Part shown: positions 21,843-63,090 of the stretch, one piece after another | Layout: the number at the start of each line of letters is the position of its first letter | Numbering within the stretch: position 1 is the first letter of the stretch | Origin: Olsenella sp. An270 | GTDB taxonomy: Bacteria; Actinomycetota; Coriobacteriia; Coriobacteriales; Atopobiaceae | Length of the DNA: 64,000 nucleotides | Direction: 5' to 3' | NCBI RefSeq assembly: GCF_002159735.1 | Contig: NZ_NFJF01000004.1 | Location: 124,001 to 188,000, forward strand | Position numbers and translations under genes: made by a program | Notes under the pieces: generated by a model | Told to the model about the DNA's origin: nothing | Database searches by the model: none | What the model saw: the letters and a program-made list of their open reading frames with translations, nothing else

Positions 21843-21918
21843 GCGGCGCCTCCTTTTCAGCTTTGCCGCGTCTGACCGAGCGTCATGCTAGCTCACGCGA
21901 CGGGCGTCCGCTGCGAAA

Positions 21919-22135
21919 TGCATAAAAATGCCTTTCATGTAGCATTAAGCGCGTTTGGAAGACCAAAAGTCGCGTTCGTGTAGCGTATTTTTCGCCGATT
22001 TTCGAAAACAGATTTCTGGATTGATATTACTATCTGGGAGAATGTCTCCGCGCGGGGTTCGGCAGGCGCCGAAGACGGCGAAATCGTGCTACACGAACGC
22101 GACTTTTGTTTTGAAAATCGCGTTAATGTAGCACG
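21919..22135. repeat. Four-site intergenic element, copy A
   Basis: Four related ~22-27-bp sites: forward 21919-21945 (TGCATAAAA...CATGTAGCAT), forward 21963-21985 and inverted 22087-22108 (CAAAAGTCGCG-TTCGTGTAGC, 21 of 22 bases shared between these two), and forward 22112-22135. The middle is AT-rich. It occupies most of the 318-bp gap between the divergent YoaK and rsmJ genes; related elements lie at 36376 and 62846. Confidence 0.8.
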
Positions 22136-22160
22136 GAGGGAAGTTTTGGACAGGAGCGGG

Positions 22161-36328: not shown

Positions 36329-36375
36329 GATGCAAGCCCTGTCGCGAGAATTGTCTCCAGAAGCGGGTTGACGCC

Positions 36376-36616
36376 GCATAAAACGGCGTCTCGTGCTACA
36401 TTCTGACGACTTTCAGATCAAAATGCTCGCTCGTGCAACACGGATTTTGGCTCTGTGGCGCATCTGATTCAAATTACAATGTCCCGAGTCACGTTTCCGC
36501 AGGTGAAAAATAATACAAGACATTATCCAGCGTCTTTTGGCGAAAAATGACGCAGCACGAGAGTCACTTTTATGCACCATACTCAGATAATGCCGCACGA
36601 GAGAGCGTTTTATGCA
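36376..36616. repeat. Four-site intergenic element, copy B
   Basis: Two forward sites (36376-36400 and 36418-36442) and two inverted sites (36552-36576 and 36592-36616) flank an AT-rich centre. Site 1 reads GCATAAAA, CGGCG, TCTCGTGCTACA. Start-to-start spacing within each pair is 40-42 bp. It fills most of the 358-bp gap between divergent trmL and the deformylase-like gene. Confidence 0.85.
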
Positions 36617-36686
36617 CCAGAGACGATTCTGCGGGGCCCGCTATACTATGTGGGTGCAACAAACGGCGACTTTTGAAGGGAACCCC

Positions 36687-62760: not shown

Positions 62761-62845
62761 GGGCGTCCTTTCGGGTGCGATTGCGTGAGGCAATTCTAAC
62801 GTGCGAGCGCTCGTGGGGCGATTGGGGCGAATGAGTCACATTGGG

Positions 62846-63078
62846 TGCATAAAATGTTCGCTCGTGCTACAAGCTGACCTATTGGCTGCATAAAACGCTC
62901 GTTCGTGTAGCACGTTTTTTCGACCATGCGCGAAAGCGATTCAACTATTGTTATCAAATCCTGCGAAAACATGAGTTTAATTTATTGATATGCTCTTCTG
63001 AGGGGAATTCTACGCAGCACGAGCGACGTTTTTATGAATCAAACGGCCAAAATGTCGCACGAGCGACAGTTTTATGCA
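62846..63078. repeat. Four-site intergenic element, copy C
   Basis: Forward sites 62846-62871 and 62887-62914 and inverted sites 63014-63038 and 63054-63078. Site 1 reads TGCATAAAA, TGTT, CGCTCGTGCTACA. Within-pair spacing is 40-41 bp, as in copy B, around an AT-rich centre. It fills most of the 330-bp gap between divergent engB and the kinase-like gene. Confidence 0.85.
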
Positions 63079-63090
63079 ATTGGGGGCATC

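Follow-up and report, generated by a model that had tools for sequence, protein, structure and literature searches.

Well-known classes of DNA repeats are regulatory repeats, mobile repeats and restriction sites. The described systems closest to the repeats treated here are the operators of the AbiEi family. AbiEi of S. agalactiae and Rv2827c of M. tuberculosis bind 23-bp repeats arranged in inverted pairs, Rv2827c binding four repeats at once and AbiEi bending the DNA, and neither protein binds the repeats of the other (PMC7319586). The likeness to the arrays of this study lies in the inverted pairs of repeats and in what is presumed for the arrays, namely the binding of four sites at once, the bending of the DNA and an exclusive specificity, whereas the AbiEi-family operators are single autoregulatory toxin-antitoxin promoters (PMC7319586) and here 26 arrays are distributed chromosome-wide. 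The arrays also differ from the AbiEi-family operators in the position of the array downstream of the gene, in the presence of a dyad motif, and in the Vsr-like domain predicted for the protein. By analogy, AbiEi and Rv2827c may be regarded as a precedent for such arrays, not as proof.

A second likeness is to the REP and REPIN sequences with RAYT, which likewise combine intergenic repeats with a responsible protein family; REPs are described as short palindromes with usually more than 100 copies per genome (PMC2817692, PMC3686654). Unlike REPs, the arrays consist of asymmetric sites of about 27 bp in a fixed four-site layout, give no hairpin signal in the comparison of their arms, occur in about 26 copies and are linked to a protein of another predicted fold. 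The repeats of REP/REPIN systems differ between species. As to the linked protein, the predicted C-terminal fold resembles that of Vsr and I-Bth0305I and of the DUF559/MTES_1575 restriction endonuclease domains, and we know of no described member of the Vsr, DUF559 or MTES_1575 type with chromosome-wide arrays. In type I restriction-modification systems, the specificity of hsdS changes by exchange of gene segments, and the logic of PRDM9 hotspots and of hsdS switching may be comparable to that of the system proposed here. Unlike the situation with hsdS, the sites described here form conserved arrays on the chromosome of the cell itself, and the array next to the gene is exchanged along with it; in contrast to both cases, the positions are conserved and the code word changes.

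None of the papers listed in our literature searches describes such four-site arrays. Place, geometry and centre of these arrays are retained, whereas the recognition sequence is replaced together with a linked nuclease-like protein; such an array fits no repeat class known to us. We describe the arrays and their relatives in other species, and present the reading, which we consider probable on the basis of the sequence comparisons below, that they form a chromosome-wide array system bound by a protein encoded at the CNNM locus, the specificities of protein and sites co-evolving. Such a system would offer a natural series of matched pairs of proteins and DNA sites for studying the evolution of DNA recognition, and it raises the question why a bacterium should maintain two dozen sites of attachment for such a protein among its housekeeping genes.

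Four-site elements in the window and in the genome

The stretch analysed, here called the window, comprises 64,000 nucleotides (G000:C9:124001-188000) of a genome of 2,013,220 bases (G000) whose genus appears to be Thermophilibacter, formerly Olsenella. The original prediction had named three copies of a four-site element in this window, at 21919-22135, 36376-36616 and 62846-63078. All of them are present, and the phenomenon is larger than had been noted. Site positions were obtained from sequence and spacing analysis, those of the dyad motif from a motif search over 26 centres, and strands are given in parentheses.

Copy A (21918-22153) is located in the gap between rsmJ and a DUF1275 gene and corresponds to the half-elements G000:C9:145918-145993 (+) and 146080-146153 (-). 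It is composed of an outer-left site at 21919-21946 (+), an inner-left site at 21962-21987 (+), a dyad motif TGATATT-N5-CTGGG... at 22022-22045 (+), an inner-right site at 22085-22109 (-) and an outer-right site at 22125-22152 (-). The second site of this copy recurs in inverted orientation as the third; the fourth, which had been thought to be flipped and to make this copy irregular, has diverged in sequence but is inverted in the normal way. Copy B (36374-36618; half-elements G000:C9:160374-160448 (+) and 160543-160618 (-)) lies between a trmL-like gene and a deformylase gene, with the outer-left site at 36375-36402 (+), the inner-left site at 36416-36442 (+), the dyad motif at 36491-36514 (-), the inner-right site at 36549-36577 (-) and the outer-right site at 36589-36617 (-); its inner-inner distance of 121 bp is one helical turn longer. 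Copy C (62844-63079; half-elements G000:C9:186844-186920 (+) and 187006-187079 (-)) occupies the gap between engB and a fructosamine-kinase gene and consists of outer-left (62846-62873, +) and inner-left (62887-62913, +) sites, a dyad motif (62949-62972, +), and inner-right (63011-63038, -) and outer-right (63051-63078, -) sites.

A half-element model of 78 positions, R1, was built from 24 halves. In G000 it detected 52 strong half-elements with E values from 3e-19 to 2e-10, well above chance expectation, and a single further match with E<=1 (E 0.08). The 52 half-elements assemble into 26 complete inverted pairs of 227-245 bp each, a number which is a lower bound, since 150 of 315 first-look candidates were scored. 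In G000 there are 35 exact matches to the inner core TCGTGTAGCG, compared with five occurrences of the reversed control pattern, and 32 of these cores fall inside the elements; the genome scan proposed earlier as a test for random placement finds the sites at non-random positions. The three remaining exact cores lie in open frames of coding appearance, and isolated operator sites were rejected as an explanation for them.

Architecture of the elements

Each element has an outer and an inner site of about 27 bp per arm, and the two arms are mirrored around an asymmetric dyad motif. The consensus of the outer site is TGCATAAAA-N5-CTCGTGC-N-RCATT and that of the inner site ATCAAAA-N5-TTCGTGTAGCGT-NN-TTTT. 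The spacing from outer to inner site, previously given as 40-42 bp, is 40 bp in 27 halves and 41 bp in 25 halves. The distance between the inner sites of the 26 elements is 111 or 112 bp in 21 cases, 110 bp in one, 102 bp in three and 121 bp in one, so that the length variants differ by one helical turn, which is a mark of proteins obliged to meet on one face of the DNA.

The centre had been described as AT-rich. This it is, but not merely so, as a motif recurs at the dyad in the 26 centres: TGATATT-N5-CTG[CG]GNAAACG, with a log-likelihood of 243 compared with 68-73 for three sets of shuffled centres searched with fewer restarts, in a search that assigns every centre one best place. The motif is oriented one way in 13 centres and the other way in 13, and in 22 of 26 it starts 30-33 nt from one arm, the other starts being at 22, 23, 27 and 42 nt. 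Comparison of the left with the right outer core gives no higher similarity inside one array than across different arrays (P=0.66), which argues for protein sites and against a hairpin. An RNA hairpin or cruciform formed between the arms was rejected, there being no excess of left/right similarity in the outer sites or the inner cores, and hairpins within a single site were assessed by eye; an exception to the lack of similarity are the 6-bp spacers of the inner sites, whose likeness is 0.57 within and 0.44 between arrays (P=0.003).

Recognition types in related species

Matches to R1 were found in 14 of 31 Thermophilibacter genomes, G000 included, and in none of 15 genomes from the order's other genera. 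The array geometry itself was found in 26 of the 31 Thermophilibacter genomes in at least one gap, in many cases combined with a different recognition sequence. The site sequence of the G000 arrays, type T1, is restricted to one species group, and other species have the same architecture with other sequences. The orthologous gaps compared among relatives show that the four-site layout, whose absence in close relatives would have refuted the original prediction, is kept. At the engB and trmL gaps of many species missed by R1, for example, the recognition sequences CTCGTGTGAT, CTCGTGCCACA, CTCGTGATGAA and TTCGGGTCAGTG were read, as were CTTCAGTCCATG, GGGATAGTGCGAAG, CTTGGTGCGAAG and ATAAGTGTGACG, and these alternatives mostly stand behind a TGCA(A)AA-like end. 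By our own reading there are about a dozen recognition types among the 31 species. In G008, arrays similar to TTCGGGTCAGTG occur at ten fetched places with spacings of 40 bp and, where both inner sites were found, 111-113 bp; the inner-inner distances in other types are 101-103, 111-114 and 122 bp. A related dyad motif, CAACTGGG-NN-TTCG, was obtained over 57 centres mostly of other types (log-likelihood 261 vs. 45-47), a set from which T1 centres, the fetched T4 arrays of G004, the G012 gap and arrays missed by the detector are excluded, in which one G005 array is counted twice and in which a few best places are poor matches.

A sequence-blind detector with a threshold of 24, a score reached by one of 60 shuffled gaps, scored the trmL gap as array-bearing in 13 and the engB gap in 16 of 30 genomes. 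By our reading, 21 genomes combine an array at the CNNM gap with one at trmL, at engB or at both, and the types agree in 17 of these; they do not fully agree between gaps in G016, G019 and G040 and are mixed in G023. Arrays of types T1 and T4 coexist in G004, G040 and G023, and G000 has no exact T4 core.

Several gaps deviate from the standard layout. In locus L226 (G013:C1:105200-110500, at about 2450-2900), arrays of the types TTCGTGTAGCG and CTCGTGCCACA adjoin in one gap, the second being partly seen. The engB gaps L156, L159 and L178 (G010, G045 and G001) hold a reduced form with one inverted pair GCGCTCGTGCAAAAGTC around a CCAACTGGGAAAAC motif, and the engB gap of G004 (L164) has, in place of the four-site array of other species, a 22-bp inverted repeat that is nearly perfect and encloses a short loop. 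Other short inverted repeats occur in the engB gap of other Atopobiaceae genera (L180, L185, L188) and may be a distant form of the arrays. The two arms of the arrays in the engB gaps L163 and L165 (G043 and G022) are near-identical, including the spacer, over the greater part of their extent, as though one arm were a copy of the other. An array of G008 (L217, contig C12) contains five site-like matches, three of them consecutive at 40 bp spacing. Five scans of viral contigs returned 0, 0, 8, 0 and 4 stretches; no four-site layout was found among these 12 matches, which were taken as chance, having two to three loose matches each.

A nuclease-like protein encoded at the CNNM locus

The candidate for a protein acting on the arrays is encoded outside the window by G000:C3:9834-10847 (L072:2035-3048). 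One of the 26 arrays follows directly downstream of this gene, and a CNNM/CorC gene is its neighbour on the array side. The protein of G000 has 337 aa and is hypervariable, being 48-62% identical to its counterparts in seven other species, compared with 89-97% for the CNNM neighbour. It belongs to a nuclease-like family represented in each of the 31 genomes by 6-17 members, and one ortholog (E<=1e-100) is present in 26 of them. In 25 of these 26 the downstream DNA reaches the apparent leader of the CNNM gene, which is not the case in the G021 contig. An array directly downstream of the ortholog was recognised by eye in 26 of 26 genomes and by the detector in 25, the G000 array scoring 23 at a threshold of 24 because the outer and inner sites of T1 differ. 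No array was found within 400 bp of the paralogs at 24 loci, which represent 23 distinct genes, L385 and L401 being the same gene. At a stricter detector threshold, an array was reported beside three of four orthologs tried (G000 being missed) and beside none of the 24 paralog loci.

Protein and sites vary together. With site strings read by eye, the partial Mantel correlation between protein and site distance given species distance is r=0.56 (0 of 5000 permutations), and the co-variation is strongest in windows of 25 columns whose first residues are 51-71 and 194-214. Site distance itself is hardly correlated with species distance (r 0.14). The proteins of G019 and G021 agree to 96% and their sites in 12 of 13 letters, while the trmL and engB DNA is 84% identical. 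The co-variation could be due in part to linkage through cassette exchange rather than to recognition.

Five genomes (G001, G007, G010, G020 and G041) are without the ortholog. Of these, G001, G007 and G010 are below the detector threshold at trmL and engB, G001 and G010 having the reduced one-pair form at engB, whereas G041 scores 24 at trmL and G020 scores 25 at engB at the threshold of 24, so that another protein may serve some arrays and the rule has exceptions. G040, G004 and G023 have arrays of two types and one close ortholog each, and the G040/G004 pairs show no decay of T4 sites although the own cassette of G040 is T1. Searches of phage and plasmid records gave no match to the protein at E<=1e-5.

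Two domains are predicted for the protein, an N-terminal alpha/beta domain and a C-terminal PD-(D/E)XK nuclease domain similar to Vsr and DUF559. A structure model computed with 45 family sequences has a pLDDT of 91 and a pTM of 0.89; an earlier model from eight sequences was poor (pLDDT 57). For residues ~180-296, the best structural match is the domain of the homing endonuclease I-Bth0305I (Z 8.4, rmsd 4.1, 95/97 residues), and the match to Vsr (Z 6.5, rmsd 4.1, 100 aligned) is tied with matches to mitoribosomal proteins (7.0 and 6.6) and Bax1 (6.6). With neither model did Foldseek return a match at E<=0.001. Searches with the 337-aa protein against Pfam, NCBIfam and PADLOC stayed below threshold, and for the G000 protein a Pfam search relaxed to E 10 was likewise without a match; among the 45 family members, MTES_1575 was matched in 16 and DUF559 in 11 at E<=0.1. 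The family set comprised 45 of 50 members from the fetched loci, with L390, L401, L402, L403 and L404 excluded, and E184, D229 and H246, which may correspond to the Vsr catalytic residues, are invariant in these 45 sequences. On the model, the C-terminal domain is assigned a Vsr-like fold. Residues 1-177 match residues 96-240 of Rv2827c weakly (1ZEL; Z 5.7, 119 aligned). By the domain order of Rv2827c, the matched part lies beyond its N-terminal winged helix, so that the AbiEi-family precedent for DNA binding is loose (PMC7319586).

Inheritance and exchange of the arrays

In seven other genomes, 61 of 89 arrays adjoin an ortholog of a gene flanking a G000 array, 52 of them with both flanks, and 19 of the 26 G000 arrays have an array at the same place in another genome; this count was made without the loci of G012, G014, G004, G003 and G013, the far end was inferred for arrays with one half hit, and the background of 6% is a rough figure of our own. 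The share of same-place arrays falls with distance (13/14 in G023, 4/10 in G008, 3/9 in G044). In the sister species G040 and G004, seven same-place T4 arrays are 80-97% identical. Positions within the sites of these seven pairs differ in 4 of 532 cases, compared with 134 of 1169 elsewhere (P=4e-18); the loci had been picked by site pattern, so that a bias towards intact sites is possible. These comparisons argue that the array copies are inherited, not jumping, and that the sites are kept by purifying selection. At the distance of G006 and G023 from G000 the element interiors are saturated: by whole-element identity the supposed ortholog ranks first in only 4 of 19 comparisons, which include at least one array of another type (L125) and two loci (L104 and L108) that failed the later adjacency test.

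It is improbable, given the following evidence, that the arrays are the ends of small non-autonomous mobile elements of the IR/DR type, with two transposase sites per end and a preference for gaps, whose families replace one another. In favour of this, the arrays lie between genes of any orientation, and several families of site sequences share one architecture; two families occur in one genome, two types lie side by side in G013, T4 sites are common to the distant species G005 and G004/G040/G023, and an array is absent from a given gap in some species. Against mobility, the best pair among the 26 G000 arrays is 73% identical (median 0.65) and T4 paralogs do not exceed 73%, compared with the high identity of the sister-species orthologs in place. 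No autonomous T1 copy was seen in G000, since each of the 52 strong half hits has its partner close by; the purifying selection on the sites also counts against mobile ends, as does the linked protein, whose predicted fold is that of a nuclease and whose 45 relatives match no transposase at E<=0.1. No target-site duplication was seen by eye in copies that are too old to judge. The earlier proposal of a domesticated small mobile element is, as it was stated, not borne out, although the arrays may have an ancient mobile origin.

Array types have also changed in place. Six of the eight G040 T4 arrays sit where G000 has T1 arrays, and the CNNM gap holds a T1 array in G040 and a T4 array in G004. 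Here the flanks are 95-97% identical, and 1,034 bp between them are without a blastn match. The exchanged block begins within the outer site, after a shared GCTCGTG, and ends inside the neighbouring gene, in such a way that the first ~64 residues of the protein are kept and the rest is replaced. The alignment indicates that the array and the variable segment of the gene were swapped as one block between these species.

This exchange, with its breakpoint inside an outer site, also bears on a reading to which we give little credence, namely a selfish system of the homing type, in which the Vsr-like nuclease would spread array and gene, in the course of gene exchange, to alleles that lack an array or carry one of another type. 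Such spread would explain the fixed places, the type switching and the conserved sites, and the best fold match is the catalytic domain of a homing endonuclease. A self-cutting nuclease, however, would meet 26 arrays in its own chromosome, and inspection by eye of array-free gaps revealed no common empty target.

Possible mode of action

If the arrays are bound by the CNNM-locus protein, as we propose, four protomers would sit on one array, two per arm, and face each other across the conserved dyad motif; the protein would bend or loop the centre of about 111 bp, and one protein would serve all arrays of its own type. Of the original interpretation, this retains the sites for a DNA-binding protein, the helical phasing and the conserved layout, and it abandons the divergent-promoter regulon and the domesticated mobile element.

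As to the output, the likeliest of the possibilities considered, albeit only a guess, is a conflict or self-recognition system, in which the nuclease-like protein would be held on, or would recognise, chromosomal arrays of its own type, so that protein and sites could change specificity only together; a purely architectural role appears rather unlikely, and slow selfish maintenance of the homing type still more so. Conceivable, though less likely than not, is a new kind of bacterial system, in which a nuclease-fold protein of rapidly switching DNA specificity would act on some two dozen arrays of its own type at largely fixed places of the chromosome, its specificity being exchanged along with its array as one cassette. 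That system could be one of programmed nicking/recombination or of self-recognition.

The positions of the arrays, which are largely conserved across species beside unrelated housekeeping genes, and the helical phasing, which suggests looping, would also suit arrays that organise the chromosome (nucleoid) without DNA cleavage, the nuclease fold being retained by descent only. We regard this reading as improbable: the active-site-like residues are kept in the 45 sequences, there is no evident reason for so fast a change of specificity, and in the closed genome G006 the 19 positions of arrays found by R1, compared with dnaA by simple arithmetic, show no evident bias towards origin or terminus.

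Genomic placement and flanking genes

All 26 elements of G000 are intergenic; four of these reach 8-28 bp into the end of a predicted gene. The surrounding gene pairs, called by our own crude codon-usage gene finder, are divergent in 11 cases, tandem in 11 and convergent in four. The description of the elements as lying between divergent genes applies to the three window copies and, genome-wide, to those 11 only. Their flanks had been noted to include RNA- or translation-related genes; over the genome they are housekeeping genes of many kinds without a common theme. Some of the gaps lie within the gene pairs prfA-prmC, rph-rdgB and tilS-hpt, which are often operons. The proposal of a regulon operator of a transcription factor at divergent promoters, in line with the three window copies, is very improbable, because the arrays are placed at pairs of any orientation (15 of 26 at tandem or convergent pairs, the three gaps just named included) and flanked by genes without a shared function. 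One G000 array adjoins the gene of a TerB_N/TerB_C protein (L084:3269-4792), a defence candidate with a strong PADLOC match to SngA (E 7e-74).
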